Assembly (NCBI GenBank): GCA_024399495.1
Contig: JAKSNY010000005.1
Location: 62,001-126,000, forward strand
Direction of reading: 5' to 3'
Source: Paludibacteraceae bacterium
Lineage (GTDB): Bacteria; Bacteroidota; Bacteroidia; Bacteroidales; Paludibacteraceae
Length of the DNA stretch: 64,000 nt
Shown here piece after piece: positions 20,904-40,899 of the stretch. Position 1 is the first letter of the stretch. The number at the start of each line of letters is the position of its first letter. The notes beneath the pieces were generated by a model. That model saw nothing but the letters and a program-made list of their open reading frames with translations. It was not told where the DNA came from and did not search any database. Made by a program: the position numbers and the translations under genes.

Positions 20904-22372
20904 AATTTCTGATTTTGTTTTGCCATATATTCTTCCACAACTTTCTTATTGAGGAATGCAACATCGCAGAAATGTTTGTTAATTTTGAACATATCGCCAT
21001 TACTCTCATTGTAGTTACGTACAAGACACATTGCACAATAACTTCTGGCTTCGCATTTCAGGCATTGAGGAAAATCACCTTGTGTAATACCTCTTATTTC
21101 ATTAAGTTTCTCTGATTTTTCCCAAATTTCACGCAATGGCTGTTTGTAAACATTACCTACTACCATAGATTGCCACCCGGCACACGGATACACATCTCCG
21201 TTCTCTGTAATACAGCAGTCGTTTATGCCAGCACCGCATAATGGCTGCTTAGACCAAGCCTCAAAATCAAACTTAATAGCATCTTCAATAGGCTTCTGTT
21301 TTAGCGTGGATTGTTTGTAGTCAATATCCCACTCTATAATATCCCTCAGTAAAGCCTCCGTTTCCTCTAACGATATTCGGTTTGCAAGATTGCTTGTGTC
21401 AAAATTTGCCTGAGCCATCATAATGTAGTCTGTCTGTGCCTTGCATTTTAGCGATTGAGCATATTTCAGCACTTCTGCGTAACCTCTGCAGTTGGCTTTC
21501 ATTACTGGGCAGGAAATCTGTACAGGAATGTCTGCTTTTACAAGTTTCTCTATTGCCGCTTTTGTTTTTGCGTGAGAACCTTTTACAGTGGTTATGAAAT
21601 CATGGATTTCAGGGTCCATGCTGTACAGTGATGTCTGTATTAGCGATACATTTGCAGCCTTGATAAATGGAATTTGCACATCCTTTAAGGCTATAAGATT
21701 TGACAGTATGGAAATCTGCATATCCTTTTCCCTGCAATACTGCATAATGCGGATAATATCCTTGTGCATAAACACCTCACCACCACTTAAAGTTACGTGC
21801 AGTCCGCCCATATCGGCAAACTCATCTATAAGAGAGAATACTTTTTCTATTGGCATATCTGCTCCGTCATTTTTCTTTTGGTTTGGGATGTAGCAGTGAA
21901 TACATCTCTCATTGCATCTGCTGGTTAACTCAAATTGTAGACCGTTAAGTCTTGGCTTTCTTTGCGTTGCCTCAAGCATAAAGTCTTGTGTGTATTGCTT
22001 TGGCTGCTGCTTGGTAAACTGACTGAAATCATCAACCAATGTTTTAGGGTTTTCCATTGAGTAACTGAAATCCAAATCCTTTTTATTCAGTTCTTCTTCT
22101 GTTTCTCCAGTTACAAGAAACAGGTGGTCTGCAAGGTCTGTAATAAAATCAGTGAATTTTTTGCGAAGTTTATCACAGGGTATGCTGTCTCCATAAAGAT
22201 TTTGCAGTCTTGCCACAATGTCTTCTAACTCTTGTGGTTTGCGTGAAATCTCTCTTAAGAAATCGGCTCCCGTCTCATTGTATGTCCTGTCATGGCGGGT
22301 CATCTGGTTTATTATATACCCACTTTCACCTATAAAGCGGATAAATGTGTTTTTGGTTTGGCGTAGTAGCAT
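20900..22372 (-). CDS. radical SAM/SPASM peptide maturase
   Basis: A 490-aa enzyme. Residues 5-95 look like a PqqD-type peptide-binding domain (YIINQMTRHDRTYNETGADFLREIS...PQELEDIVARLQNLYG). The radical SAM core begins at about 145 with CNERCIHC (C153, C157, C160) and continues with VTLSGGEVF. The C-terminal SPASM domain (from about 355) carries the auxiliary-cluster cysteines: PLCGAGINDCCITENGDVYPCAGW and then CLKCEARSYCAMC. The architecture is that of RiPP maturases forming Cys-, Cys-alpha- or C-C-linked products. The 41-aa Cys peptide two genes upstream is the likely substrate. Confidence 0.88.
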   Translation of the reverse strand: MLLRQTKNTFIRFIGESGYIINQMTRHDRTYNETGADFLREISRKPQELEDIVARLQNLYGDSIPCDKLRKKFTDFITDLADHLFLVTGETEEELNKKDLDFSYSMENPKTLVDDFSQFTKQQPKQYTQDFMLEATQRKPRLNGLQFELTSRCNERCIHCYIPNQKKNDGADMPIEKVFSLIDEFADMGGLHVTLSGGEVFMHKDIIRIMQYCREKDMQISILSNLIALKDVQIPFIKAANVSLIQTSLYSMDPEIHDFITTVKGSHAKTKAAIEKLVKADIPVQISCPVMKANCRGYAEVLKYAQSLKCKAQTDYIMMAQANFDTSNLANRISLEETEALLRDIIEWDIDYKQSTLKQKPIEDAIKFDFEAWSKQPLCGAGINDCCITENGDVYPCAGWQSMVVGNVYKQPLREIWEKSEKLNEIRGITQGDFPQCLKCEARSYCAMCLVRNYNESNGDMFKINKHFCDVAFLNKKVVEEYMAKQNQKL

Positions 22373-23863: not shown

Positions 23864-23895
23864 TTTGTTTTTCTCACATAATGTAACTATTTTTG
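23864..23895 (+). promoter_or_regulatory. promoter of the DUF4143 ATPase
   Basis: TTTG (23864-23867), a 20-bp spacer and TATTTTTG (23888-23895), 20 nt before the ATG at 23916. Confidence 0.6.
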
Positions 23896-23915
23896 CCACA
23901 AAATACCATTATATT

Positions 23916-25031
23916 ATGATACAGAGATTATTGACAGATGTACTAAAGGCTTCATCCTTGCAAAAGATATATGTTATACTTGGACCTCGTCAAGTAGGCA
24001 AAACCACTATGCTGGAGCAATTGAAGCAGCCAAATGATTCCATACTGATGATGGATTGTGACAATTATGACGACAGGCTCTTGTTAGAGGATAAAACAAA
24101 AACGGAGCTGAATAATCTGATAGACGGTTATGATGTGGTTATGATAGATGAGGCTCAAAAGGTTACTAATATCGGACTGTCACTAAAAATGCTGGGAGAC
24201 TTGAAGTCAAGTGCCAGAATATATGTTACAGGTTCTTCATCGTTGCAACTTACCGATGAGATAAGCGAGCCGGCTACAGGACGTTTGCTTGAGTATAAAA
24301 TGTACCCGATGTCATTAACAGAGATGGCACAGCATACATCTAAAAAAGAAGAACAAAGGCTATTGCAGGTTCGTATGATATATGGTTTGTATCCTGAGGT
24401 GGTTACAAATCCCAAAGATGCCAGACAATTACTGCTGACCATAGCCAATAACTATCTGTATAAGGATATATTGGAGTACAAAGGTATAAAAAAACCGGAG
24501 TTGCTTAGAAAACTTTTGGTGGCTTTGGCACTTCAATTAGGCAACGAGGTCTCATATAATGAACTTAGCAATATGCTTGGTGTAGATAAGGAGACAGTGG
24601 AGAATTATATAGATTTGTTAGAGAAGTGCTTTGTTGTTTTCAGGCTAAACTCATATAGCGGGAACCTGCGGAATGAAATCAAAAAAGGAAAGAAAGTTTA
24701 TTTCTACGATAACGGGATACGCAATGCAATAATATCAAATTTTGCTCCGTTGGAATCACGCAACGATACAGGGGCATTGTGGGAGAATCTTATGGTATCA
24801 GAAAGAATGAAACATAACGAATATACAGGCAGTTATGCACAAATGTTCTTTTGGCGTACACAGAAACAGAAGGAGATAGATTTGGTGGAGTGGAAAGACG
24901 GTATGCTTGATACATTTGAGTTCAAGTGGAAGGAGGGTAAAACCTCACGTATGCCAAAGGATTTTGCATCGGCGTACCCAAATTCCACCTTCAAAACCAT
25001 AACACCTTCCAACTTCTGGGAGTTTGTGTAA
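23916..25031 (+). CDS. AAA ATPase with DUF4143 domain
   Basis: A 371-aa STAND-type ATPase. Walker A is GPRQVGKTTM near the N-terminus, and Walker B is DVVMIDEAQKV. A winged helix follows (LGNEVSYNELSNMLGVDKETVENYIDLLEKCFVVFRL), then the DUF4143 nuclease-like fold with KVYFYDNGIRNAIISNF and the restriction-enzyme-like core FFWRTQKQKEIDLVEW...TFEFKWKE (E-ID-EFKxK). Role unknown; many copies exist in Bacteroidetes genomes. ATG 23916 was chosen, as the frame upstream runs through its promoter. Flanked by hairpin copies 3 and 4. Confidence 0.85.
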   Translation: MIQRLLTDVLKASSLQKIYVILGPRQVGKTTMLEQLKQPNDSILMMDCDNYDDRLLLEDKTKTELNNLIDGYDVVMIDEAQKVTNIGLSLKMLGDLKSSARIYVTGSSSLQLTDEISEPATGRLLEYKMYPMSLTEMAQHTSKKEEQRLLQVRMIYGLYPEVVTNPKDARQLLLTIANNYLYKDILEYKGIKKPELLRKLLVALALQLGNEVSYNELSNMLGVDKETVENYIDLLEKCFVVFRLNSYSGNLRNEIKKGKKVYFYDNGIRNAIISNFAPLESRNDTGALWENLMVSERMKHNEYTGSYAQMFFWRTQKQKEIDLVEWKDGMLDTFEFKWKEGKTSRMPKDFASAYPNSTFKTITPSNFWEFV

Positions 25032-27375: not shown

Positions 27376-28356
27376 ATGAGCCGCAAGTCATTTGTTGCAA
27401 TTATTTGGGCTATACTTTTAACATCGTGTACAGAAAAGTATGACTTTACGCTTAGCACTGCACCATCGCAGCTTGTAATTACAGGCTATGTATGTACAGA
27501 GCCGGGTCAGTACGCAATAAACATTTCACGCACAGGAGGTTACTTTAGTAATGACAGTCTTGCCGATGTACCGCCTGCCGATGTTTATATAAACGATGAG
27601 AAACTTACCCCTTGTGATACCATTCCAAACAAGTATCTTACTAAAGATGATTTCTGTGCCGCCTATGGTGGGGTGTATAACCTTAAAGTTGAGATAGATT
27701 TTAACGGCGATGGGATAAAGGAGACCTACACCGCTGAGGCTAAGACACCATATTTTGTACCCCTATCTGGTCTATTGCTACAGACATTGTCAAATGACCC
27801 CAATGGCTCACAGTTCCCTATGACAACCCTTATAACATTTCAAGACCCTAAGGGCATACCATGCTATTATGGGGCACATTTGTACCTTACCACAGCCAGA
27901 GATTCTGCCGACACTTATAACAGGTATCATATATCAAACACTCCGTCTAAGTATTGTCTTGGCACTGTTGACACCGAAGCCATAGATGGTCAGTTTGTGT
28001 TTTATCCTGCGTATATGGTATCAAAAAAACTGTTGCACAAACCACTTGATACACTAACCGTATATCCTAACGATACCATAGAGGTAGAGCTTAACTGCCA
28101 CACTAAAGACTATTTTACTTTTTTAAGTGACTGTGCAAGTTCAGCCAGTGGTTCCAGTCCTATGTTTATGGTGCCTGCCGGACCTATTAAGGGCAATATA
28201 AGTGGTGGAGCCATAGGGGCATTTGGAGTTTATACAGTATCAAGGAAAAAGGCTGTGGTTCAGTATAAGGAGGGGAGTTGGACAGATGAGCAGATGATTA
28301 AGCGTTTTGGCGTTCATTGGCGTAAACTGTTTTCTAAAGAGGAGGGTGGCAAATGA
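27376..28356 (+). CDS. DUF4249 outer-membrane lipoprotein
   Basis: A 326-aa lipoprotein with signal and lipobox AIIWAILLTSC (Cys18). The body matches the DUF4249 pattern: LVITGYVCTEPGQYAINISRTGGYFS...PPADVYINDEKLT, and FNGDGIKETYTAEAKTPYFVPL. Such proteins are encoded with TonB-dependent receptors and probably act as the surface partner in uptake, like SusD in other systems. The stop overlaps the receptor start by 4 nt. The ligand is unknown. Confidence 0.82.
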   Translation: MSRKSFVAIIWAILLTSCTEKYDFTLSTAPSQLVITGYVCTEPGQYAINISRTGGYFSNDSLADVPPADVYINDEKLTPCDTIPNKYLTKDDFCAAYGGVYNLKVEIDFNGDGIKETYTAEAKTPYFVPLSGLLLQTLSNDPNGSQFPMTTLITFQDPKGIPCYYGAHLYLTTARDSADTYNRYHISNTPSKYCLGTVDTEAIDGQFVFYPAYMVSKKLLHKPLDTLTVYPNDTIEVELNCHTKDYFTFLSDCASSASGSSPMFMVPAGPIKGNISGGAIGAFGVYTVSRKKAVVQYKEGSWTDEQMIKRFGVHWRKLFSKEEGGK

Positions 28357-30494
28357 GGCGGATTGCCACTATATTGTTATGTATGCTATTGCCATACTTA
28401 TGTAGCGTAGCCGCTACGCCTTTAGTGGATGAGAGTGACTCAATACGTATGGAGGGTACACTTGATGAAATCTCAGTTACGGCACTATCATCGCGTAAAA
28501 AACTTGATGTGCCGTCACTTGGGTTAGAGAAGCTTACAATACAACAGATAAGGCTTATGCCATCTATGTTTGGTGAGGTGGACGTTATTAAATCATTGCA
28601 GATGTTGCCTGGAGTGCAGTCCATGTCAGAGGGTTCATCGGCGTTCAGCGTGCGTGGCGGTGCCCCTGACCAGAACCTTATTCTGCTTGACGGTGCCACC
28701 ATCTATAATGCCTCTCACTTTTTGGGTTTTTTCAGCATTTTTAACAACGATATTATAGAGAATGCAGTGCTTCATAAGGGTGATGTGCCGGCTACGCAAG
28801 GTGGCAGGCTGTCATCGGTGCTTGAGGTTAATACCAAGGATGGCTGTAATGATAAACTGCATGGGCAGGGTGGTATAGGGCTTATATCGTCAAGAATACT
28901 GCTTGAGGGTCCGCTTGTAAAGGATAAACTTACCGCTTGGATTGGAGGTCGTGTGTTCTATGCGGGAATGTTTCTGCCGGCATTTAAAAAATTAAATAAA
29001 ACAGTAAGCAAGAGCCGCCTCACTTTTTACGATATTAACGCAAAACTGTCAGCCACACTCTCCGCCAAACACAGACTCTACATAACAGGATATGCCGGCG
29101 GTGACTATATGGCACTTAGCGGCACGGGTAAGTTTATGTATGCAAACTACTCAGCCACAGCCCGATGGAGTGCCATAGTGTCAGATAAATTCTATATAAA
29201 CACATCTTTTCTATCGTCATTCTATAACTATACTGGCAGTGGTAGCCTTAACGCCTTATCGGGTCAGTGGACATCTAAAATAAATGATTATGGTTTCCGT
29301 CAGGAATATACCTACAACCCCGATGTGCATAACAGCCTTAAAATGGGCTACCATTTATCATATAAATACCTTAAAAGCGGCGATACCAAGATAAATCAGG
29401 AAGGAATAGAGAATAGTATGGGTATAAGCATACCTGCAACTAACAGCCTTGAGACGGCACTATTTGTATCCAACGCACAGAAATACGGCATAGTTTCCCT
29501 ATCGTACGGACTGCGTGCATCTGTATTTAATAATATAGGTCCACAAACGGAGCCTGTTCTTAATGAGCGGCATCAGAAAAGCGGCTCCATTGATTATGGC
29601 AAGGGGCAGGTATATAACACCTATTGGAACTTAGAACCAAGAGCAGGAATTGCGGTTGAGTTCTATAAAGATATGTCACTTAAAGCAAGTTACTCACGTA
29701 CAGCACAGTACATACACCTTATGCAGACCTCTACAGCAGGCTCTCCGCTTGATGTGTGGAAAGTGTCAAGCCCTAACCTGAAGCCTGAGACTTGTGACCA
29801 AGTGTCGGCAGGGTATGTATGTAATTTCTTTAAAGACCAATTTCAGATAAGTGTTGAGGGCTACTATAAATGGCTTCACAATGTGGCTGATTTTAAGGAT
29901 TTTGCAAACGTAATGCTAAACAAGGACGTAGATGCAGAGATACTTAGCGGTAAGGGTAGGGCATTTGGTGTGGAGTTTATGCTAAGGCGTGATATTGGTA
30001 AGGTTACGGGGTGGGTTAGTTACACCTATTCACGCTCATTTCGCACCATAGACGGCATAAACAGCGGGCATGAATACTCATCTACGGCAGACCGTCCGCA
30101 TAGTGTGAATATATTTCTAAACTATAAGATAAACAAGTGGATAGACGTAAGTGCCGCTTGGGTGTATGCAACAGGACAGCCGTTTACCGCACCCGATGCA
30201 CGTTATGAGGTGCCCGATTTTGGAGACAAGGAGGTTATTCCGTTATATACGGGGCGTAACACCTATCGTTTCCCGGATTATCACAGATTAGACCTTGCGG
30301 TAACCTTTGACTTGAATAAGGGCATAAAAAAGCGTTATAACCACAATATAAACATTAGTCTTTACAATGTATATTGCCGTCATAACGCTTGGATGATGAG
30401 TTTTAAAACCAATCCTGAAACCAATGCACAGGAGGCAATCCTCACATACCTATTCTCTATAGTCCCGTCTATAACCTACAACTTGAGCTTTTAG
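28353..30494 (+). CDS. TonB-dependent outer-membrane receptor
   Basis: A 713-aa receptor with a signal peptide (MRRIATILLCMLLPYLCSVA). The TonB-box-like region LDEISVTALSS (about 36-46) is followed by the plug (VIKSLQMLPGVQSMSEGSSAFSVRGGAPDQNLILLDGATIYNASHFLGFFSIFN) and a 22-strand barrel ending in SIVPSITYNLSF. It lacks the N-terminal carboxypeptidase-regulatory-like domain that many Bacteroidetes receptors have. It pairs with the DUF4249 lipoprotein by a 4-nt overlap. The imported substrate cannot be read from sequence. Confidence 0.88.
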   Translation: MRRIATILLCMLLPYLCSVAATPLVDESDSIRMEGTLDEISVTALSSRKKLDVPSLGLEKLTIQQIRLMPSMFGEVDVIKSLQMLPGVQSMSEGSSAFSVRGGAPDQNLILLDGATIYNASHFLGFFSIFNNDIIENAVLHKGDVPATQGGRLSSVLEVNTKDGCNDKLHGQGGIGLISSRILLEGPLVKDKLTAWIGGRVFYAGMFLPAFKKLNKTVSKSRLTFYDINAKLSATLSAKHRLYITGYAGGDYMALSGTGKFMYANYSATARWSAIVSDKFYINTSFLSSFYNYTGSGSLNALSGQWTSKINDYGFRQEYTYNPDVHNSLKMGYHLSYKYLKSGDTKINQEGIENSMGISIPATNSLETALFVSNAQKYGIVSLSYGLRASVFNNIGPQTEPVLNERHQKSGSIDYGKGQVYNTYWNLEPRAGIAVEFYKDMSLKASYSRTAQYIHLMQTSTAGSPLDVWKVSSPNLKPETCDQVSAGYVCNFFKDQFQISVEGYYKWLHNVADFKDFANVMLNKDVDAEILSGKGRAFGVEFMLRRDIGKVTGWVSYTYSRSFRTIDGINSGHEYSSTADRPHSVNIFLNYKINKWIDVSAAWVYATGQPFTAPDARYEVPDFGDKEVIPLYTGRNTYRFPDYHRLDLAVTFDLNKGIKKRYNHNINISLYNVYCRHNAWMMSFKTNPETNAQEAILTYLFSIVPSITYNLSF

Positions 30495-30573: not shown

Positions 30574-31872
30574 TCACATGTGTTCATTTAGGAGATAATA
30601 TAATGGCATTATCAACCTTGATATTATACTTCTTTTTTCCGTAATGATTTGAGCCGTACCTATTATTTCCCCTGTGAATTTTACCGGCTTGCCAGAAGAA
30701 AAAACAAGTTGTTCAGGAAAAGTCACTTCTACGGTATATGTATTATCATCAGGTATTAATGATATTGAATTTACGCTTCCTTGTAAATATCCGTATTCCA
30801 AATAAGGATATGCCTCGCTTTTAACAAGTACGAGTTGTCCCTTTTTTACTTTACCGGACCTGGCTATAGGGGTTTTAACCTTCCCTATAAAATTATTCAT
30901 GCTATCAGGTATTACTGCAAAAACATTATCCCCTGCATTAATGAATTGATTTTCTGTCCATACAGCGTTAAATGTAACTATACCATTATCATGAGCCATT
31001 AAAACATAATTTTGTTTCCATTGAGATATAACAACTTTCAACTCCTTATATGAAGACATTAGTTGTTGAATCAATTGATTGTGCTCCTGAGCATACTGAA
31101 ATGACAGCTTGTTACTGCTCTCCTGTAATTGGGACAACTCCACATTTTCCATTGATATGGATGTCCTTAATAATTGTTCGGCCTCTTTCTCTTCTAAAAG
31201 AGTGCTTTCCGCCAGTTCCATGTCTGCTGGTGATATGAGTTCTTTTTCAAATAAGTATTTCTCTCTATTATAAGTTTGTTGGGCTATCTCCAAATGTCTT
31301 TTCTTTAGAGTAAGTTGTTCCTTAAGATTTGAAATATATGCAATCTTTCCTGCTTTTTGTTTTTTTACAGAATTCTCTTCCTGCTCAATTAGATTTAGAG
31401 ATGTAAAATTATTGTACAATACAACTTTTTGCAAAAAATCAGAATAAGCCGCCTGAACATTACCCAAATTAAAAGAATCCAGTAAAATGGCTTCAGGGAT
31501 AACTATTTCAGGATGTATAACCACCAAATTTAGCAGAGAATCCAATTTTATGACATCTTCAGTAGTGGCGGTGTTTTCTAATACAGCAAGAATTTCAGTC
31601 CTATTTACGTAGTCACCGTTTTTCACGTACAATTTTTTAATTCGTTCACTGGTGTGAGCCACACTCCACACTGGTGGATTTTCGGCTGTTACCGTTATAG
31701 TTCCCTCTACTATGTCAGGATAACAAAATACAAAACTACCAATCAGCAACAACAAAAAAACAGAACAGAAAATAGTTATGCCATACCTGACAATACTGTG
31801 AGGCGGTTTGGTGAGTATTTCCTGTAACTCATCACTTTTGATTTCAATGGATTTTTCTACATCTTCATTCAT
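30574..31872 (-). CDS. HlyD-type membrane fusion protein (RiPP B export)
   Basis: A 432-aa periplasmic adaptor. One N-terminal membrane helix (about 30-52) is followed by a lipoyl-like half (SERIKKLYVKNGDYVNRTEILAVLEN), a long coiled coil (about 140-270) and the second half and barrel domain (NAVWTENQFINAGDNVFAVIPD...KVKKGQLVLVKSEAYPY). It bridges the inner-membrane ABC exporter to an outer-membrane channel, which is not encoded here. Spacing to the upstream C39 ABC gene is 14 nt. Last gene of RiPP cluster B. Confidence 0.88.
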   Translation of the reverse strand: MNEDVEKSIEIKSDELQEILTKPPHSIVRYGITIFCSVFLLLLIGSFVFCYPDIVEGTITVTAENPPVWSVAHTSERIKKLYVKNGDYVNRTEILAVLENTATTEDVIKLDSLLNLVVIHPEIVIPEAILLDSFNLGNVQAAYSDFLQKVVLYNNFTSLNLIEQEENSVKKQKAGKIAYISNLKEQLTLKKRHLEIAQQTYNREKYLFEKELISPADMELAESTLLEEKEAEQLLRTSISMENVELSQLQESSNKLSFQYAQEHNQLIQQLMSSYKELKVVISQWKQNYVLMAHDNGIVTFNAVWTENQFINAGDNVFAVIPDSMNNFIGKVKTPIARSGKVKKGQLVLVKSEAYPYLEYGYLQGSVNSISLIPDDNTYTVEVTFPEQLVFSSGKPVKFTGEIIGTAQIITEKRSIISRLIMPLYYLLNEHM

Positions 31873-31886
31873 TTTCAGATTGTTTT

Positions 31887-34082
31887 TTATAAATCCAACT
31901 GATTCTTGACCAATTTATAATAGGCTCCTTTTTTAGCACTCAATTCTTCATGTGTGCCTATTTCCACTATTTTACCCTTGTCTAAAACCACTATCTGATC
32001 AGCATCTCTTACAGTACTTAACCTATGAGCCACAACCACAGAAGTCCTGCCTTTGAAAAAAGATTTCAAATTATCTAAAATTTCACGCTCATTATTGGCA
32101 TCCAGTGAATTTGTGGCTTCATCAAAGAAAACAAACTGTGGATTTTTGTAAATAGCCCTTGCTATCAATATTCTTTGTTTCTGCCCTTGACTTAACCCAT
32201 GTCCTTCTGCACCTATTTTTGTATTATAAGATAATGGCAAAGACTCTATAAATTCATTTATATTAGCCATCTTTGCCGCTTTGTACAATTTTTCACTATC
32301 TATGGATTCTCCGCTTGGAGCAATATTGTTTGCTATGGTGTCAGAAAAAATAAACCCCTCTTGCATAACAACACCACATGATTTTCTCCATTGCCTTATA
32401 TTGTAAACATTCACATCATTATCACCCAACTTAATGTCTCCCTTATCTACAGGATAATATCTTAACAGCAATTTCAGCAACGTAGTTTTGCCACTACCGC
32501 TACAGCCCACTATAGCGGTCATCTTTCCTGTCGGGATGGTTAAATCAACTCCATCTATAGTCCATTGTCCAACAGAGGTCTTGTCATAGCGGAAACAGAC
32601 ATTGGCAAGAATCAAATCCTTGTCTTTCGGAACGCAAGTCAGTTGCGTTGCCTTTGAATCCTCGTTTTCCAAAGACTGAACCTCACTTAAACGGTCAAAA
32701 CTCAAACGGGCATCTTGCATTTGCCTCATAAAGCCTACAAGTTGATCTACCGGACTATTGGCTTGCCCTAAAATGTATTGAATGGCAGACATCATTCCCA
32801 ACGTCAAACTTCCATCTACAACAAGACTTGCAACTATTGCGGTAACAATAAGATTTTTAAAACTATTAATAAGAACCGCACCTGAGTCTTGGTATTGAGA
32901 CAAAGCCATTGATTTTACACTCAAGCGGAATAACTGTGCCTGAATACGTTCCCATTTCCATCGTTTTGATTGTTCGCACGCATTAAGTTTAATCTCTTGC
33001 ATACCGGATATCAGTTCTATCATATTGCTGCTGTTGGCTGACTCCTGATAGAAATTCTTTGTGTCCAACTCCGCTCTACGTTTCATAAAAAGTTTCACCC
33101 AAGAATAATACATGACACTGCCAACAGCAAATATCATGAAAATCAGTGGACTGTATAAAAACATAATAATGCTGAATACTACAAGATTAAACATAGAGAA
33201 TAAAATACTCAAACTTGAATTTGTAAGTAAATCCTGTATGCGGGACTGGTCGTTTATTCGTTGCATTATGTCACCGGTCATTTTGGTGTCAAAATAACCC
33301 ATGGGTAGTTTCATTAACTTTATAAGGAAATCTGACACCATAGAGATATTTACCCTTGTACCCAAATGAAGCAGTATCCACCCCCTAATAAATTCAACCG
33401 ATGTGCTGCTGATAACCAATATCAACTGGGCAATCAACACCAGATATATATAATTTATATTTTGAGAGGAAATACCATAATCAACTATTGACTGAGTGCA
33501 GAATGGTATAATCATTTGTATGGCACTGGCAAACATTAGGCTCAAGCATAACTGCACAATCAATCCTTTGTATGGTTTTAAATATTTGAATATATATAGC
33601 AGACTGCGTTTTTCATTTACATCATCTTCCTCGTAAACATAAAAATCAGGAGTTGGTTCCAATAACAGGACAACCCCTGTATTTACACCATTAATGCTGT
33701 TGTTTTCCCAACACTTACAAAATTCATCTTTTGTAAACTTCAATTTGCCCGATGCAGGATCTGCAACATACACCCAAAAGTCACCACCTTTCTTTTTTAT
33801 ATCATAAACAACCAAAAAATGGTTCTGTTTCCAATACACAACGCAAGGCATTGGAGCCTGACACAAAGTATCAAATGATATTTGAGCACCCACTGTCCTG
33901 AATCCTATACTTTCAGCAGCCTCACTGATACCAAGCAATGATACACCCTCATGAGTAATGTGTGATTTCTCACGCAATCCCTGTGCAGAATATAGCCGTC
34001 CGTAATGAGCCGCTATCATTCTCAAACATGTTGGACCGCAGTCCATTGCGTCTTGTTGCTTGTAATGGGGAAATTTTTGCAT
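31887..34082 (-). CDS. peptidase-containing ABC transporter (C39, PCAT)
   Basis: A 731-aa exporter that cuts leader peptides after a double Gly and exports the core. The N-terminal C39 peptidase has the catalytic Cys in DAMDCGPTCL (C15), His in QNHFLVVYDI and Asp in VADPASGK. The membrane domain spans about 170-450. The ATPase domain has Walker A GCSGSGKTT, signature LSQGQKQR and Walker B FVFFDEATNSLD. All catalytic residues are present. It lies 3 nt downstream of a DUF6734 gene, and the precursor with a GG leader is encoded two genes upstream. Confidence 0.93.
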   Translation of the reverse strand: MQKFPHYKQQDAMDCGPTCLRMIAAHYGRLYSAQGLREKSHITHEGVSLLGISEAAESIGFRTVGAQISFDTLCQAPMPCVVYWKQNHFLVVYDIKKKGGDFWVYVADPASGKLKFTKDEFCKCWENNSINGVNTGVVLLLEPTPDFYVYEEDDVNEKRSLLYIFKYLKPYKGLIVQLCLSLMFASAIQMIIPFCTQSIVDYGISSQNINYIYLVLIAQLILVISSTSVEFIRGWILLHLGTRVNISMVSDFLIKLMKLPMGYFDTKMTGDIMQRINDQSRIQDLLTNSSLSILFSMFNLVVFSIIMFLYSPLIFMIFAVGSVMYYSWVKLFMKRRAELDTKNFYQESANSSNMIELISGMQEIKLNACEQSKRWKWERIQAQLFRLSVKSMALSQYQDSGAVLINSFKNLIVTAIVASLVVDGSLTLGMMSAIQYILGQANSPVDQLVGFMRQMQDARLSFDRLSEVQSLENEDSKATQLTCVPKDKDLILANVCFRYDKTSVGQWTIDGVDLTIPTGKMTAIVGCSGSGKTTLLKLLLRYYPVDKGDIKLGDNDVNVYNIRQWRKSCGVVMQEGFIFSDTIANNIAPSGESIDSEKLYKAAKMANINEFIESLPLSYNTKIGAEGHGLSQGQKQRILIARAIYKNPQFVFFDEATNSLDANNEREILDNLKSFFKGRTSVVVAHRLSTVRDADQIVVLDKGKIVEIGTHEELSAKKGAYYKLVKNQLDL

Positions 34083-34085
34083 ATA

Positions 34086-35561
34086 TTAAGCCGTTTTTAT
34101 CACTTTATATAGAGCTAACTTTTTAAGAGATTCCTCTATCAAATTAAAAAAAACATTTATTACCTGTGTATCTGAACTTTCAACATAAGGCAACATATTG
34201 TTTTTTAAAGCATGTATAGTACATGGCTTTTCTAATAAAGAAAGAATTAAAACATCAATGTCTTCTATATCATATAATGAAAATCCAACAGTTGTATTCT
34301 CCGGCACTAATAGATTTATGTAATGACTACGCTTAAACTTCCAGTTTTCATAAATAGCCACACCAACTCTCTCATTTGAATTAATCAGTCCTCCCCAATC
34401 ATATTCAGACTCAATTATCTTGAAATACAACTCTCTTTGAATTAAACAGCTATTCCCATTTAAGAATATTTTTTCATAAGATTCACAAAAGTGATTGTCT
34501 CTACTCTCTATATAATTGATATTACAACCTTGTAAATAGTCACTTATCTCTTTTTTTATTTGGTTAAACTCCAAAAGTGCACCATCAAACTCAACGCTGT
34601 CATTCCTATCAATAGAATTATAGTATTCATTAAACTTTGAGAAATCAGCCACACCGGTCTTTTTTACCGGAAATGATTCTATTTCGCAGGAATTGTCACT
34701 ATATAATTTAAGAATTCTTTCAAAATATTCAGGGTATAGTTGTTTTAATTTATAGGCTACCTGAATGCATGAAAAGCGGTCTTTTTTATAACATCCTAAC
34801 ATGTGTATATAAGATCTCCCCTTTGGCGCTTCATATATGTCTCCCATCTGTTTATAACCGTTATCATTAATATGTTCCTTAAACAAACATTTAATATTGG
34901 CATACTTATGCTTTGCCATAACGTACAGCAAATGTTGTTCAAAAAAAACATTGAAATGATCAGCCGTAACATTTTGAAGTGATTTAACATTATTTAACAC
35001 GTATCTGAACGCTTCTTCTGTGTAATTTTTAAATAATGTTATATCATTTCCACCTAAGATTCCCGCATTTAAAGCACAGATTTGAATGCTATCGGTAAAA
35101 TCCTTTTTAACTGTTTGCGGAATATATGAGAAATTCTGCTCTATATAGTTTTGCATCTGTTTGTAGTATCCGGTTGCAACCTCTATGTTTTGAGCAAACA
35201 CGTCTGCACACAATAATGTTTCAGGCAGTTTTTCAAACAAATAGACATCACCATCTATATGAACAAACGGCTTATCCTGCAAACTGTATGTCCATAATTT
35301 AGGAAGAGCCCACAAATCTTTATGTGGTAAATTGAATTTTTTGGGAAATATTACGACATTTGCATAAGAAAGTCCCATCTTATCCACTAAAAAAGACGCC
35401 CCTTTCTCATCTGCATAAAGAGTAACGTCTCCATACAATTTCTGTAACTGAAGGAAACTGAGTGCCCACGACATCCAGTTATACTCTGACTTTACCCATC
35501 CAAAGGAATCCGTTAACGGATACTTCTCCTCTCCTATGTACATAGTTTGTATAACTTTCAT
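34086..35561 (-). CDS. DUF6734 glycosyltransferase-like protein fused to a C-terminal domain
   Basis: A 491-aa cytosolic protein. Residues 1-290 match DUF6734-type proteins and look like a GT-A glycosyltransferase: YNWMSWALSFLQLQKLYGDVTLYADEKG, DLWALPKLWTYSLQDKPFVH and a DxD metal motif HIDGDVYLFE (D103, D105), then LNAGILGGND. The remainder (about 300-491) ends in an RRE-like winged-helix pattern (DVLILSLLEKPCTIHALKNNM...VFFNLIEESLKKLALYKVI) that could bind the leader. A paralogue occurs at 38160-39056 without this extension. Proposed role: sugar or other modification of the precursor; unproven. Confidence 0.7.
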   Translation of the reverse strand: MKVIQTMYIGEEKYPLTDSFGWVKSEYNWMSWALSFLQLQKLYGDVTLYADEKGASFLVDKMGLSYANVVIFPKKFNLPHKDLWALPKLWTYSLQDKPFVHIDGDVYLFEKLPETLLCADVFAQNIEVATGYYKQMQNYIEQNFSYIPQTVKKDFTDSIQICALNAGILGGNDITLFKNYTEEAFRYVLNNVKSLQNVTADHFNVFFEQHLLYVMAKHKYANIKCLFKEHINDNGYKQMGDIYEAPKGRSYIHMLGCYKKDRFSCIQVAYKLKQLYPEYFERILKLYSDNSCEIESFPVKKTGVADFSKFNEYYNSIDRNDSVEFDGALLEFNQIKKEISDYLQGCNINYIESRDNHFCESYEKIFLNGNSCLIQRELYFKIIESEYDWGGLINSNERVGVAIYENWKFKRSHYINLLVPENTTVGFSLYDIEDIDVLILSLLEKPCTIHALKNNMLPYVESSDTQVINVFFNLIEESLKKLALYKVIKTA

Positions 35562-35648
35562 ACGATTATTGTAGTATTATAGGCAAATGTCAATTTATAA
35601 AAGCAAGCCTGGGGCACCCCAGGCTTGCAAACTAGCAAGATGTTTCTT

Positions 35649-35876
35649 TTATCTAGCGTATTTACGCTTTAATTCAGGAGTCATGCAACGGTTGGATCCG
35701 TAAGGAGCTCGTTCGCAAGTTGTGCCCCTACTACAATCGGCATTGCTGATGCAAGTAGTAGACGATTCCCAATCAAGACGGCCGGTAGCCCAGTTGTACC
35801 CACCGATAACATCTCTCATTTGCAATCTTGACAATTTGTTTTTCAAATCATTCAAATTAAACTTTAAATTTTCCAT
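35649..35876 (-). CDS. double-glycine leader precursor peptide with four Cys (RiPP B)
   Basis: A 75-aa precursor from ATG 35876; the frame upstream lacks any similarity. The leader MENLKFNLNDLKNKLSRLQM ends in RDVIGG (G25-G26), the Bacteroidales GG-type leader recognised by C39 exporters. The core of 49 residues begins YNWATG and holds four cysteines, C42, C48, C54 and C64 (CX5CX5CX9C), plus many Ser/Thr (SSTTC, SRGTTC) and a basic tail (KRKYAR). Four Cys and a VKOR-thioredoxin gene next door point to two disulfides; Ser/Thr-rich loops could carry sugars. Confidence 0.82.
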   Translation of the reverse strand: MENLKFNLNDLKNKLSRLQMRDVIGGYNWATGRLDWESSTTCISNADCSRGTTCERAPYGSNRCMTPELKRKYAR

Positions 35877-35962
35877 AATAAAATAAATTTTTTTTGGCAC
35901 CAAACCGCATGTGCCCGTTAAACAATTATTTACCATTAGCGGCTTGTTTTAATGGTATTTAT

Positions 35963-37549
35963 TTACTGTTTTGTTAAAAACTCCAAATCTTCAAGGTCAT
36001 ATTCATCAGGCATTTCAAAACCATTATAGTAAAAAGTGGGAGTGTGTATCACATTCATCTCATCACACCATTTTGACATATCAGAAATGACATCTCCTAT
36101 ATTGATATTCTTACATTCCTCAACGGGAAACATATCTAACAGCCTTTCAATACATTTTTCGTCTGAATTGTTTTTATACCAAAAAATTAAGGCTTTTTGT
36201 ATGGATTCCTTACCATATTTTTCAAAAATAGATACAAAGCTTTTTACTACCTTGTAAGATACATGTTGCTCATTGTTAGGAGTTATAAACACTATACGCA
36301 CATTAAGTGCAACACCCCTTTTCAACATATCCTCCAATTTTAAGTGTGCTCTTGCACATGCCCCACAGTAAGGGTTACATACCATAATTAACTCATCGCT
36401 GGATTGCTCATCACCCACGCAAATTCCATACTTTGGTTTTGCTGTTACAGAATTTTGTTTCTCTAAAATAGCATTAAATATGTTTTCATTGAATTTCAAT
36501 CTCTTATATCTATAGGTCTGCACCTTTAGTTGAATTTTTTCCAGTAAATGTGGTTTTAATATATACCATAGCAACAATGGTAAACTGTAGGATATACAAA
36601 TAGCACCTAATTCAGCGGTTATATTTTGGAAACTCAAATCATTCAGCATAATAATAGCAAAAACACCTTGGGAAAACAAAACCAACTGGACTAACAGGCA
36701 GAGCAGACACCATTGTTTCACAAAAAAACCTTGATATACCAATGAGAATACAATATACAATGAAGAACATATGGAGATGAAGAATAAAAAGTCATAATTT
36801 TTGCATACTAATGACAAAATAGTCCCACCTGCAAAATAGATAAAGCCAACTTCACTCCAACTCAACCAAGAAAACACATGTGAAGCCTTACTTCCAAGAA
36901 CAGCGGTACAACTTCCTTTAGGGATTGAAGAGCACACTTTGTGAAGAAGCGGATTGGTGTTATCTACATCATACGCCAAAAGCGATATAGAGAGTGCACC
37001 TCCTAATATCATAGTGGCAAAAATATAAGCAAATTCTAACGATACAGACTTGGACGGTAGCAGGCTATACACTCCAATACCTAAAATAAGAAGAAATAAT
37101 GCAGGCATTACAAATGTAAGACATTTTTGAACCACGTTTTGATAATAATTACTCTCTCCTGAAGATTCGCTTTTTTCAGCCAACAGGCATATACCGGTCC
37201 AAAGTTGCAAAAAGGCATCTGTTGAGTCTGTTTTATATCTATTATGGATTATATCATAGTATGTAACCTTATCGCTTGTGGTCTCTGTTACAACTGTAAA
37301 CGCCATTTCTCCATTAATATTCAGCTGTGCTATAAACGGAGTTGGCATCTTGGCAAGGTCTTTTTTATCTAATGATACAGAAGCATTATTAACATTCCAC
37401 TGTCTAAGAGAATCGCTTATGCCCAACAAAGTATCAGCATACGGATGACTTTCTATGGTCTTTATCACTGTTGAAAAAGAGACTTTCACATTCATCTTTT
37501 TTAACAGTTGATATGTCGCTACACATGTGTTTCTGTTATTAAAAATCAT
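35963..37549 (-). CDS. VKOR-thioredoxin fusion with degenerate C39-like domain
   Basis: A 528-aa membrane thiol oxidase. Residues 1-125 resemble a C39 domain: a Cys is kept (NTCVATYQLL), but the catalytic His before FTVV is replaced (EMAFTVVTE), so it probably binds rather than cuts leaders. The VKOR core (about 140-335) has the loop cysteines C206/C214 and active-site CLLC (C281, C284). The C-terminal thioredoxin-like domain has NPYCGAC (C395, C398). It would form disulfides in the exported four-Cys peptide using quinone. It lies directly upstream of the precursor gene. Confidence 0.85.
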   Translation of the reverse strand: MIFNNRNTCVATYQLLKKMNVKVSFSTVIKTIESHPYADTLLGISDSLRQWNVNNASVSLDKKDLAKMPTPFIAQLNINGEMAFTVVTETTSDKVTYYDIIHNRYKTDSTDAFLQLWTGICLLAEKSESSGESNYYQNVVQKCLTFVMPALFLLILGIGVYSLLPSKSVSLEFAYIFATMILGGALSISLLAYDVDNTNPLLHKVCSSIPKGSCTAVLGSKASHVFSWLSWSEVGFIYFAGGTILSLVCKNYDFLFFISICSSLYIVFSLVYQGFFVKQWCLLCLLVQLVLFSQGVFAIIMLNDLSFQNITAELGAICISYSLPLLLWYILKPHLLEKIQLKVQTYRYKRLKFNENIFNAILEKQNSVTAKPKYGICVGDEQSSDELIMVCNPYCGACARAHLKLEDMLKRGVALNVRIVFITPNNEQHVSYKVVKSFVSIFEKYGKESIQKALIFWYKNNSDEKCIERLLDMFPVEECKNINIGDVISDMSKWCDEMNVIHTPTFYYNGFEMPDEYDLEDLEFLTKQ

Positions 37550-37591
37550 ATCTATACAAAATCATCGACATTATTATTCTAAATAAGTTGT

Positions 37592-38173
37592 TTACCATAC
37601 ATTTTCAGCAATATCCACAGGCAGAATAACTTGTTGAGACAAAAAATGACGGCATAGCATAATTATATTTTCTAAAAGCAATGGATTTTCCTCTTTGTTA
37701 ATATCCAGCAATTTTAACAAACCATCTATTGAAAACTTCTCTCCTGTAGTTATTATCTGATGAAATACTGGGTTCTTAAGACTGTAACACAACTGTTTCA
37801 AATTATTGGTGCCTGTGGCTATATAAGAGGGTAACAGGTATATTACAAATTTTTTCCCTTGCGAATAATACACATCATTAGTCTCAAAGAAATCATCGGG
37901 GTCATCATACGTCTCAAATAATCCCCAATTACCATTTACGTATATGTACTTTAGATGTTTGTTTAAAATCAACTCTTTTTTACAAAAATCATCATCTGAT
38001 AATTTCAGCATTTCAAAGCAGGAAGCGACAAGCATACTCTCCTTGTCACAAAAATTATTATTGAATATATGATACATGGATTCCATGTAGTCATCACATA
38101 ACTTTTTATACTGCTGAAAATTACTGACAACAAAATCTTCACCAAACACTATCTCATTATTATTTAAAGTCAT
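37592..38173 (-). CDS. 193-aa hypothetical protein of RiPP cluster B
   Basis: A soluble protein starting 14 nt inside the upstream DUF6734 gene, so the two are translationally coupled. I see loose similarity in layout to the C-terminal part of the 491-aa DUF6734 fusion: an aromatic/acidic stretch (YIYVNGNWGLFETYDDPDDFFETND), KKFVIYLLPSYIA and a terminal helical region (LKQLCYSLKNP...LLENIIMLCRHFLSQQVILPV). It may be the split-off counterpart of that domain and serve as leader binder. No known family was recognised. Confidence 0.55.
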   Translation of the reverse strand: MTLNNNEIVFGEDFVVSNFQQYKKLCDDYMESMYHIFNNNFCDKESMLVASCFEMLKLSDDDFCKKELILNKHLKYIYVNGNWGLFETYDDPDDFFETNDVYYSQGKKFVIYLLPSYIATGTNNLKQLCYSLKNPVFHQIITTGEKFSIDGLLKLLDINKEENPLLLENIIMLCRHFLSQQVILPVDIAENVW

Positions 38174-39056
38174 TTGTCAGTTTATTGCTTTTGTATAAAT
38201 CAACAATTTTTTTATAGTACTCAGGAAATTCAAAAAACAATCTATACGCTATCTGCTCTCCTGTTGAATAGTCTCTTTTTGCCGTGCTCATTGCATGGAT
38301 AAAGTTCATAGACCTGCCTATTTCTGAAAAGTAGTTTTTGTATATGAAATCTTCTTTTGGATTATTAAATAAGCAACTGACTTTTTTATTGCTGTTTGAA
38401 CATATACAATAGAAAAGATATTGCTCATATATTGAGTTAAACATTCCTTTGTACCTTAACTTTGGTATATCAGGCAAATTCTCGTTAACAAATCTGAAAG
38501 CCTTTTCACTATATTCTCTAAAAAAAGTCACATCATTCCCACCTATAATGCCGGCGTTATATTCATTAATCTCCAAATTATTTGTCCTAAAGGTAAGTAT
38601 GTCATCAGGGATATAGCTCAAGTTGGATTCAACATCATTGTAATATGCAATATTTTGTTTGTAGTTGGACTCCTTGTGTTGAACCAATATATCAGCTGTT
38701 TCTATGTAAGACGGAAATCTGTCCCAAATATATGAGTCATAATCCACGTGAATAAACGGTTCTTTTTGAACGCTATATGCGTATATCTTACCTAATGCCC
38801 ACAAATCAGTGGAATACTCGTTCAACTCATCTAATTCTGTATATACGTTACTATATGGCAACCCCAATGTGTCAATCAATACTTTCTTGCCCGCTTTGTC
38901 GCAATATAAATCAATTTCCCCGTACTGCCTCTTGTAAGTCAAACAACTTAATGCCCAACTCATGTAAAAAAAGATTGGTTTGTTCCATCCTCCTATGACC
39001 CCTTTGTAGCAACCTGAATTAACAGGCTTGCTCCACAAACTATGTATTATCTTCAT
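38160..39056 (-). CDS. DUF6734 glycosyltransferase-like protein
   Basis: A 298-aa protein paralogous to residues 1-290 of the 491-aa protein: FFYMSWALSCLTYKRQYGEIDLYCDKAGKK, LPYSNVYTELDELN, DLWALGKIYAYSVQKEPFIH, the acidic motif HVDYDSYIWD (D105, D107) and YNAGIIGGND. The fold looks like a GT-A glycosyltransferase with a DxD site. First gene of RiPP cluster B, with a promoter 81 nt upstream (39137-39168). The substrate is probably the four-Cys peptide; the donor is unknown. Confidence 0.72.
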   Translation of the reverse strand: MKIIHSLWSKPVNSGCYKGVIGGWNKPIFFYMSWALSCLTYKRQYGEIDLYCDKAGKKVLIDTLGLPYSNVYTELDELNEYSTDLWALGKIYAYSVQKEPFIHVDYDSYIWDRFPSYIETADILVQHKESNYKQNIAYYNDVESNLSYIPDDILTFRTNNLEINEYNAGIIGGNDVTFFREYSEKAFRFVNENLPDIPKLRYKGMFNSIYEQYLFYCICSNSNKKVSCLFNNPKEDFIYKNYFSEIGRSMNFIHAMSTAKRDYSTGEQIAYRLFFEFPEYYKKIVDLYKSNKLTNDFK

Positions 39057-39136
39057 TTAAGAAATCTAATGCTTGATACGAAACACAATCGCATACAACC
39101 ACATTTTGTGAATGTGTAAAATGCAAAATTCGTGTG

Positions 39137-39171
39137 CAAAGTTACGATTGAATTTTATGGCAATCAATCGT
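39137..39171 (-). promoter_or_regulatory. promoter and possible operator of RiPP cluster B
   Basis: On the minus strand: TTG-containing -33 (39165-39168), a 20-bp spacer and TAACTTTG (39137-39144). An 8-bp inverted repeat ACGATTGA (39144-39151) / TCAATCGT (39164-39171) lies across the -33 side and could bind the adjacent XRE regulator. Confidence 0.55.
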
Positions 39172-39208
39172 TTGAAATGAATAGTAATCAATAAAAACTG
39201 AAAAATAG

Positions 39209-39436
39209 TCAATTTTTACAGTTGATTACGGAAGTGTAAAAGGCAAAAAAGTCCACTCCCAGGACAATAGATATTTTAAGAAGTTGGTCACAATCAATGC
39301 TTTTCCGGTTAAGCAGTTTGCAAATATTAGTATTGTCGCAGCATATTTGTTCTGCAAGCCATGTCTGTTTGCGTCCTTGTTTGGTCAGTTCTTCTTTAAT
39401 AAGAGAACCTATGTGAATATTGTTTGTTTGTACCAT
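39209..39436 (-). CDS. XRE-family helix-turn-helix regulator
   Basis: A 75-aa DNA-binding protein: IHIGSLIKEELTKQGRKQTWLAEQICCDNTNICKLLNRKSIDCDQLLKISIVLGVDFFAFY, a complete five-helix XRE/Cro-CI domain and almost nothing else. It lies just upstream of the RiPP cluster B promoter on the same strand, and an inverted repeat sits in that promoter, so it is the likely cluster regulator. Directly upstream of it is a strongly structured element. Confidence 0.78.
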   Translation of the reverse strand: MVQTNNIHIGSLIKEELTKQGRKQTWLAEQICCDNTNICKLLNRKSIDCDQLLKISIVLGVDFFAFYTSVINCKN

Positions 39437-39690: not shown

Positions 39691-40899
39691 TTATTCTAAT
39701 CCGTTCTTCAAAAATTGTCTGATATTAAGGTGAATTATGCCATTATTGTCAGTTCTTGAAACAAGAGGCGTCATTGATATGACATATTTTGGGTGACTGT
39801 CTTTTATTGTTGCTAAATTTCCAAATTCACGCATTCTAGTATCTTCGTTTGCAATTATATATGCAACTTGAACATATTTTGTCCCTTCATTGGATTTGGT
39901 GCATACAAAATCAATTTCTCCAGCACGTAGTTGCCCTACAGTAACTTCATAACCCAAATGTATAAGATGATTATACACTATGTTTTCCAATATTTTTTCT
40001 ATATCTTCATCTCGTGTGCCGCATGCAATTGCATTGCGTATTCCAATATCTTCAAAATAGTATTTGTCATTGCTCTCAAACAATCGTTTACCGTGTATGT
40101 CATATCTGTTAATCTTATGTAGCAGATATGACTCGCATAGCATTCTTATGTAATTTAACACCAATACTGATGTTACACTGGTGTCTTGAGATTTCATATA
40201 TTTTGATATGCTGGTGGCAGATATTATTTTTCCTGTATTATCTGCTAAAAATTTCAACAAATTCTCAAGAAATGCTGTATTCCTGATATTGTTTCTACTT
40301 ATTATGTCTTTTAGAAGTACGGTGCTATATACATCTGTTTGGTATTCATACGCATCATGTTCATCCAATCCAATTTTTATGATGCCTGGCAACCCACCAA
40401 AATTAATATAATGAGTAAGAGATTCATCGCTGTCTTGTAAATTGTGAAATTGCAGAAATTCCAAGTATGTAAGTGCTTGTATGTAAATTTCCTTGTATCT
40501 GCCACCTATTAAAGTGGTAAGTTCGCTGCTTAATAATTTGGAGTTGCTTCCGGTAATAATAATGTCAGTGTTTTCCTCTTTAATAAAACTGCGTAGTGAG
40601 CGTTCAAATTCCTGTATATCCTGTACCTCGTCAATAAGGATATAATTGTGTTTGTTTCGGCTTATCTTGCTGTCAATGTACGTATTAAGGTCAGTATATG
40701 TTTTGATTTTATCAAATGTCCTGTCTTCTTTATCAATGTATATTATATTTGAACTGACAATATTCTCCTTGCTTGTTTTGAATGTTTTTAGAATGGAACT
40801 TTTACCAACTCGTCTTTGCCCTGTAAGAACAATGATTCTCTCTTGCCCCAAGTATTTGTCTATCCGATTCAGGTAATATGTTCTGTTTATTAGATTCAT
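39691..40899 (-). CDS. AAA ATPase with DUF4143 domain (second copy)
   Basis: A 402-aa protein of the same broad family as the plus-strand ATPase at 23916. Walker A is LTGQRRVGKSSIL, Walker B is YILIDEVQDI, and the sensor-like segment is IIITGSNSKLLSSEL. The middle has a winged-helix region (ISATSISKYMKSQDTSVTSVLVLNYIRMLCESYLLHKI), and the DUF4143 end has KYYFEDIGIRNAI and the nuclease-like core QLRAGEIDFVCTK...KYVQVAY. It has its own promoter and is followed by the structured element. Function unknown. Confidence 0.85.
   Translation of the reverse strand: MNLINRTYYLNRIDKYLGQERIIVLTGQRRVGKSSILKTFKTSKENIVSSNIIYIDKEDRTFDKIKTYTDLNTYIDSKISRNKHNYILIDEVQDIQEFERSLRSFIKEENTDIIITGSNSKLLSSELTTLIGGRYKEIYIQALTYLEFLQFHNLQDSDESLTHYINFGGLPGIIKIGLDEHDAYEYQTDVYSTVLLKDIISRNNIRNTAFLENLLKFLADNTGKIISATSISKYMKSQDTSVTSVLVLNYIRMLCESYLLHKINRYDIHGKRLFESNDKYYFEDIGIRNAIACGTRDEDIEKILENIVYNHLIHLGYEVTVGQLRAGEIDFVCTKSNEGTKYVQVAYIIANEDTRMREFGNLATIKDSHPKYVISMTPLVSRTDNNGIIHLNIRQFLKNGLE

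Follow-up and report, generated by a model that had tools for sequence, protein, structure and literature searches.

A predicted RiPP gene cluster with two DUF6734 proteins in a Paludibacteraceae bacterium, probably working like a glycocin system with different enzymes

Organization of the gene cluster

We analysed a stretch of 64,000 nucleotides (the window) from a Paludibacteraceae bacterium (GenBank assembly GCA_024399495.1, contig JAKSNY010000005.1, positions 62,001 to 126,000 of the forward strand), in which eight genes on the minus strand form a cluster at positions 30574-39436. Two of the genes encode proteins of the Pfam family DUF6734. We consider it fairly probable that the cluster makes one secreted, glycosylated, two-disulfide ribosomally synthesized and post-translationally modified peptide (RiPP), most likely a bacteriocin, and that DUF6734 carries out the glycosylation, the chemistry being predicted from the sequence.

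The first gene as transcribed (39209-39436; 75 amino acids, aa) is a small XRE-type helix-turn-helix gene, a candidate regulator with a weak HTH_3 match (E 0.062). It is followed by the gene for DUF6734a (38160-39056; 298 aa; PF20508 E 3.4e-92), a short form and putative GT-A glycosyltransferase, and by the gene for a 193-aa accessory protein (37592-38173) that had no Pfam match at E ≤ 1. Then come a VKOR-thioredoxin protein with an N-terminal degenerate C39-like domain (35963-37549; 528 aa; PF07884 E 7.6e-10, PF13462 E 5e-6, PF03412 E 1.6e-10) and the precursor peptide (35652-35876; 75 aa), whose leader (residues 1-26) ends in GG and whose core (residues 27-75) contains four cysteines. The last three genes encode DUF6734b (34086-35561; 491 aa; PF20508 E 1.5e-92), a long form; a C39 peptidase-ABC exporter (PCAT; 31887-34082; 731 aa; PF03412 E 7.4e-32, plus ABC domains); and a HlyD-type periplasmic adaptor (30574-31872; 432 aa; PF13437 E 2.3e-12; TIGR01843 93.7 bits, below its cut-off). 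DUF6734a and DUF6734b scored 310.5 and 309.3 bits against PF20508, for which the cut-off is 27, and both belong to the family.

A preliminary description of this DNA had named a four-cysteine GG-leader precursor with a 49-residue core, a VKOR-thioredoxin oxidase, two DUF6734 proteins with DxD motifs, a C39 ABC exporter and an HlyD adaptor, all on one strand. The open reading frames and Pfam matches bear out each of these, and the motifs are intact in both DUF6734 proteins; the gene for the 193-aa protein and the VKOR protein's degenerate C39 domain had been overlooked. The XRE gene said to lie upstream is indeed present, although it falls outside the cluster as first delimited and is recognized only by the weak HTH_3 match. 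HTH-like genes, judged by eye, also lie near three relatives (L022, L023 and L048; loci outside the window are referred to by L numbers). The proposal of a single promoter is plausible, because a TAACTTTGC box that matches the pattern of a Bacteroidetes -7-like promoter (consensus TAnnTTTG) stands 5' of DUF6734a on the minus strand (39136-39144). However, the pattern is frequent in the window (31 sites against 18.25 expected) and therefore weak alone, and a strong hairpin of 11 pairs lies directly 3' of the precursor gene (35603-35628, minus strand; z -2.90). The hairpin may give a higher level of precursor mRNA relative to the downstream genes.

The precursor peptide and its leader

A profile was built from 19 leader peptides hand-picked from other DUF6734 loci, many of them VKOR loci, and run on the 1,819 six-frame stretches of at least 20 residues in the window. 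The precursor matched with E 2.9e-6, and the next best stretch had E of at least 0.47. By this measure the precursor is real and not a chance reading frame. Its leader residues V-4, M-7 and L-12 coincide with the positions that are buried in LahT: in the LahT peptidase complex, as described in PMC6363468, the leader residues Val-4, Leu-7 and Leu-12 sit in pockets.

Among 393 genomes of the order, the core matched itself and one other sequence (L116, E 0.0023), which we regarded as spurious after looking over its frames by eye; within these genomes the core sequence is private to this precursor. A granulin-like or DX-like core was considered and found too weak (granulin E 0.64; DX E 0.0024, 18.7 bits against a cut-off of 25 bits). 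The precursor scored 21.8 bits against TIGR04149, below the cut-off of 25, and the 'rSAM-modified' label of that family was rejected, as no cluster protein had a radical SAM match.

DUF6734 as a probable glycosyltransferase

For residue conservation we aligned 63 long forms, DUF6734b of the window with 62 of the 68 long references. Twelve of the 18 positions tested were identical in 63 of 63 sequences, including H101, D103, D105, E208, Q209, H253 and K259. For H101, D103 and D105 this constancy is in part a product of the search, since the scan that supplied most of the rows used a peptide pattern that demanded them, which weakens the case; E208, Q209, H253 and K259 were not demanded and give free evidence (63 of 63). 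DUF6734a keeps the same H/DxD/EQ/H/K motifs. GT8 enzymes such as LgtC have the motif order DxD, NxG, (D/E)Q, H-x5-K, and DUF6734 shows the same order. In addition, in two neighbouring proteins of locus L027 the DUF6734 domain (66.3 and 64.3 bits; cut-off 27) is fused to a true GT8 domain (59.5 and 55.1 bits; cut-off 24.3). A confident AlphaFold2 model of DUF6734b (pLDDT 94.2, pTM 0.92) has strands alternating with helices, with the DxD following a strand, and consists of a GT-A-like domain (residues 1-290) and a C-terminal accessory domain (about 370-491). Because of the conserved DxD, EQ and H-x5-K and the two distant GT8 fusions, DUF6734 is probably a GT-A glycosyltransferase, the GT-A fold itself being predicted.

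Several results count against this assignment. The L027 fusions are adjacent genes in one genome with low DUF6734 scores, and in the tree a very long branch separates them from the other rows. Comparison of the DUF6734 and GT8 profiles by hhalign was weak (P 0.003 and 0.033, the latter with a GT8 set that was gathered mechanically and may contain wrong frames). No solved chain matched when the DUF6734 profile was run against PDB sequences (best E 0.39). Neither DUF6734a nor DUF6734b matched PF01501 (GT8) at E ≤ 1. DUF6734 is thus like GT8 in motif order and in the L027 fusions, but it is a separate Pfam family whose profile similarity to GT8 is too weak for proof of kinship. A kinship with GT32 was also considered and gave nothing meaningful (17 columns, P 0.026). 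On the supporting side, GT2/GT7-type and GT32-type genes adjoin DUF6734 in L022 and L024.

Two DUF6734 forms and a shared accessory domain

In a tree of 95 rows, DUF6734a and DUF6734b fell into different supported groups (99/97 and 100/100). DUF6734a forms a group of four short-form rows with L023, L094 and L025 (support 99/97). The DUF6734b group has seven rows; the loci of all six others include a C39 ABC gene, and three of the six also a VKOR gene.

The 193-aa protein has a blastp relative (E 2.3e-5) directly after the short DUF6734 gene of L023, and is a probable partner of DUF6734a; the corresponding genes of L025 and L094 were put in the same family by position, at 20-21% identity. When the four-row alignment of this family was compared with DUF6734 positions 357-479 by hhalign, E was 2.2e-4 and the probability 45, so that the C-terminal part of the 193-aa protein and the C-terminus of DUF6734b may be one and the same domain. 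A profile of this accessory domain matched the gene directly after the short DUF6734 gene in 7 of the 19 listed short genes, in trans: L052 (1.6e-7), L061 and L067 (8.3e-6), L099 (3.4e-5), L060 (1.2e-4), L097 (5.7e-4) and L106 (0.0015). Matches were weaker for L023, of the 193-aa family (0.016), and for L072, L055 and L057 (0.11-0.22). From the profile matches and the hhalign comparison, it is therefore probable that DUF6734b has the accessory domain in cis and that the 193-aa protein provides it to DUF6734a.

C39-like domains on the modifying enzymes

The catalytic Cys and His were kept in all nine aligned C39 exporters, that of the window included. The catalytic Cys was missing in all eight aligned C39-like domains (six on VKOR proteins and two on DUF6734 tails), and the C39-like domain of the window VKOR protein keeps neither catalytic residue. 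A profile of the VKOR protein matched PDB chains of both kinds, ComA/PCAT (3.4e-5) and VKOR-thioredoxin (6.1e-5), and its Cys residues 206, 214, 281, 284, 395 and 398 were present in every one of 24 aligned sequences, that of the window among them. Of the two DUF6734 tails, that of L021, in the source genome, is a C-terminal C39-like domain recognized by Pfam (31.8 bits), and that of L105 matched only the C39 profile built in this analysis. The L021 cluster (contig C10, 4145-10548) contains a Cys-free GG precursor (63 aa), an HlyD-like gene and a C39 ABC gene.

In type I secretion transporters, C39-like domains lacking the catalytic residue serve to bring in the substrate (PMC6363468). The domains found here resemble these C39-like domains of HlyB-type exporters in belonging to the C39 fold family without the catalytic Cys, which suits substrate tethering; unlike them, they are carried by modifying enzymes, the VKOR oxidase and, in two relatives, DUF6734. 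Since DUF6734 is fused to such a domain in two relatives, it probably acts on leader peptides, and the VKOR protein of the cluster, which has a C39-like domain of the same kind, is open to the same leader-directed reading.

The L021 cluster, a second RiPP-like cluster of the source genome, also encodes a membrane protein with an EExxxR motif, which we take to be CPBP-like.

Association of DUF6734 with export and oxidase genes

A scan of contigs confirmed 187 relatives, and the counts below rest on the best 79 loci, with mechanical open reading frames as gene calls and with C39, VKOR and HlyD labels from profiles built in this analysis. The preliminary description had suggested mining genomes for DUF6734 beside C39 ABC genes, and such a pairing does occur: a C39 ABC exporter lies within 8 kb, on either strand, in 31 of the 79 loci. 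A VKOR gene lies within the same distance on either strand in 26, one or both of the two in 41, both in 16, and a same-strand HlyD gene in 22. These association counts have no matched background rate behind them, and in the statistics related loci, once near copies were removed, are counted as independent of one another. By name, 78 of the loci are assigned to Bacteroidota and one to Chlorobiota.

DUF6734 is uncommon in the order, with a match in 10 of 393 genomes, 8 of them above the cut-off. The source genome, which is 82.5% complete, encodes four DUF6734 proteins, distributed over three places. All four of its above-cut-off C39 domains and its only VKOR gene sit at two of these three places; a fifth C39 match, below the cut-off, lies elsewhere. 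As judged from these gene neighbourhoods, the grouping is not by chance. At the third place (L020, contig C14, 7584-10871), in which no C39 gene was seen, the neighbours of the DUF6734 gene encode proteins that resemble an M50 membrane protease and a polyprenyl synthase. Each has a Pfam match just below the cut-off, and the N-terminus of the protease-like protein is possibly PqqD-like by eye.

High-scoring DUF6734 copies were found only in this genome among 16 of the genus; two further genomes each contain a single member with a lower score (76.7 and 50.2 bits). The G+C content of the cluster is 34.6%, that of the window 39.2%. The low G+C content and the sparse presence in the genus therefore suggest that the cluster was acquired by horizontal gain.

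DUF6734 adjoins LanB and LanC genes in L048, a radical SAM-SPASM gene in L094, DUF6625 in L040, and in L052 (Flavobacterium) a nonribosomal peptide synthetase (NRPS) gene (C-A-T-C) with a LanC-like protein. The family is therefore not confined to the present cluster type. The combination of DUF6734, an NRPS gene and a LanC-like 651-aa protein is seen in three Flavobacterium loci (L052, L055 and L057, with the NRPS and its C-A-T-C layout checked in L052 alone), and nonribosomal peptides may thus be among the substrates of DUF6734. The Emticicia plasmid pEMTOL02 (L117) carries a DUF6734 gene together with a pair of VKOR genes and a pair of peptides with six Cys each; a lantibiotic dehydratase gene is nearby, and a transposase gene lies some 6 kb away.

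Cysteine and Ser/Thr content of the precursors

After near copies (L030, L042, L043, L090 and L095) were dropped, 25 of 30 rows remained, or 26 with the window. In loci with a leader-profile match, the precursor had at least four Cys in 18 of 18 VKOR loci (window included) against 4 of 8 loci without VKOR (Fisher p 0.0047). Two loci with DUF6734 and a C39 exporter, L034 and L038, have Cys-free cores that are rich in Gly and Ser/Thr. Tracts made only of S, T, G, A and C with at least five S/T were found in 11 of 532 same-strand proteins near DUF6734 against 4 of 751 others (p 0.016; L030 and L098 left out of the count); the 11 proteins span nine loci, and the L038 precursor is among them. It appears that Cys tracks the oxidase and Ser/Thr tracks DUF6734, and O- rather than S-glycosylation by DUF6734 is therefore favoured, as far as precursor composition can indicate. 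S-glycosylation as the default or main reaction was set aside on account of the Cys-free precursors of L034 and L038.

Ser-Gly or Ser-Ala-Gly tract proteins adjoin DUF6734 in Bacteroides and Dysgonomonas (L065, 13784-15001; L073, 13142-14062; L102, 8470-9408; L103, 14849-15253), and these are possibly heavily O-glycosylated.

Proposed pathway and comparison with known systems

We propose the following pathway. The leader would be bound by the degenerate C39 domain of the VKOR protein and also by recognition domains of the DUF6734 enzymes, fused in DUF6734b and supplied by the 193-aa protein for DUF6734a. In the cytoplasm, the DUF6734 enzymes would transfer sugar from a nucleotide-sugar to Ser/Thr of the 49-residue core. 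The exporter would cleave after GG, and the peptide would leave via HlyD and an outer-membrane channel encoded elsewhere. VKOR-thioredoxin would form the two disulfides on the periplasmic side, which is the side expected from the topology of characterised VKOR homologues. The product would carry both sugar and two disulfides and would most likely be a bacteriocin.

More tentatively, we suggest that DUF6734 proteins are phylum-wide peptide O-glycosyltransferases allied to GT8 that serve an undescribed RiPP class of Bacteroidota, in which dead C39 domains grafted on VKOR or DUF6734 read the GG leader and the accessory domain acts in cis or in trans. Oxidase, transferase and exporter would then all read the same leader, and the trans accessory would be the 193-aa or LanC-like proteins; taken as a whole, this broader suggestion could well be right, though we would not yet favour it over its denial. 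Should these proposals hold, a Pfam family that occurs across Bacteroidota and has not been studied would gain a function, Gram-negative bacteria would be seen to have a glycocin-like class of peptides made by new enzymes, and dead protease domains would turn out to have a second use in reading leaders.

A number of observations weigh against these proposals. The 187 relatives were ordered by their resemblance to a query alignment made from the window and from loci found through Pfam, and the 79 loci are the best of them. In 38 of the 79, C39 ABC and VKOR are both absent within 8 kb, in some cases perhaps because the contig ends there, and in L052 DUF6734 adjoins the NRPS gene. The C39 His column still has His in two of the eight C39-like domains (L050 and L076, two of the six VKOR rows). 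Precursors with at least four Cys occur in the non-VKOR loci L036, L061, L070 and L082, and also in the dropped L095, with which the count becomes 5 of 9. No immunity gene was recognized in the cluster.

The lack of a recognized immunity gene would suit a modified peptide with a signalling or surface/structural role rather than a killing one, as would the long Ser-Gly proteins, not bacteriocin-sized cores, of several relatives. We regard this as unlikely but a serious contender, for bacteroidetocins and glycocins of similar anatomy are antibacterial, and multiple precursors per locus, as in L042, suit weapons.

The bacteroidetocins (class IIf, Bacteroidales) share with this cluster four Cys, cleavage after GG, a thiol oxidoreductase, a C39-type ABC exporter and their occurrence in Bacteroidota, and these parts are listed in PMC6671954. 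The cluster could thus make a plain disulfide bacteriocin of that sort, with DUF6734 as a GT-A-fold enzyme of another reaction on the peptide, e.g. nucleotidyl transfer, since a DxD suits other nucleotide-using enzymes too. Bacteroidetocins, however, have leaders of 15-16 aa and a four-gene set with a protein of five transmembrane segments (PMC6671954), whereas the leader here has 26 aa and no separate gene of that kind was seen by eye among the cluster open reading frames. Moreover, the cluster adds the DUF6734 enzymes and the 193-aa protein, and the L027 fusions link DUF6734 to GT8. We therefore rate this explanation as improbable.

Still less probable is that DUF6734 glycosylates another target (lipid, capsule or lipoprotein) and is a chance neighbour or passenger here. 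The 38 loci with neither partner gene nearby fit such a role, but DUF6734 is fused to C39-like domains, the C39 and VKOR genes of the source genome cluster beside it, and LanB/LanC and radical SAM genes adjoin it in L048 and L094.

The preferred reading, a glycosylated two-disulfide RiPP, agrees in part with the glycocin logic put forward in the preliminary description. Glycocin cores are helix-loop-helix structures with two nested disulfides, and their SunS/GccA transferases belong to the GT2 class. As in the glycocins of Bacillota (sublancin, glycocin F), we found a double-Gly leader, a C39 ABC transporter, a thiol-disulfide oxidoreductase in the cluster, a glycosyltransferase candidate and Cys pairs in the core. 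Similar workings are thus supported across Bacteroidota, but membership fails: neither DUF6734 protein matched PF00535 or another GT2/SunS-type Pfam family at E ≤ 1, and in place of such a transferase there are two DUF6734 copies and an accessory protein, so that the enzymes do differ from the glycocin ones, as had been said. The oxidase is also distinct, being a VKOR-thioredoxin with a C39-like domain, export is Gram-negative with HlyD, and the Cys-free relatives point to O-linkage. The cluster probably works like a glycocin system without being a member. It is highly improbable that the cluster is a genuine glycocin system, with a transferase of the SunS type, that was gained from Bacillota: the gene roles equal those of sun/gcc clusters (SunA, SunS, BdbAB and SunT; PMC12457901) and the G+C content is low, but the GT2 match is absent and 78 of 79 loci bear Bacteroidota names, with one of Chlorobiota.

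PMC9576775 describes glycocins from Bacillota. The text of a survey of Bacteroidales RiPPs (PMC10352776) has no glycocin, vitamin K or DUF, and mentions S-glycosyltransferase domains with radical SAM and LanC in some strains. The preliminary description knew of no described example with DUF6734, and the name was likewise absent from the literature we searched, which also held no link of vitamin K epoxide reductase to double-glycine peptides in Bacteroides.

Glycocins beyond Firmicutes are reportedly the subject of Singh and Rao 2021, which could hold overlapping predictions.

Genes around the cluster

Convergent with the cluster are a lipoprotein-like gene, presumably similar to DUF4249, and then a TonB-dependent-receptor-like gene (27376-30494). 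Farther away is a radical SAM/SPASM-like protein (20900-22372), probably belonging to a 'cluster A' of the preliminary description, for which the 25 best of 62 NCBIfam matches are all below the cut-off. AAA ATPase-like genes flank the cluster region at 23865-25031 and 39691-40899; the latter is AAA_14/DUF4143 by Pfam, and the former is alike by eye.

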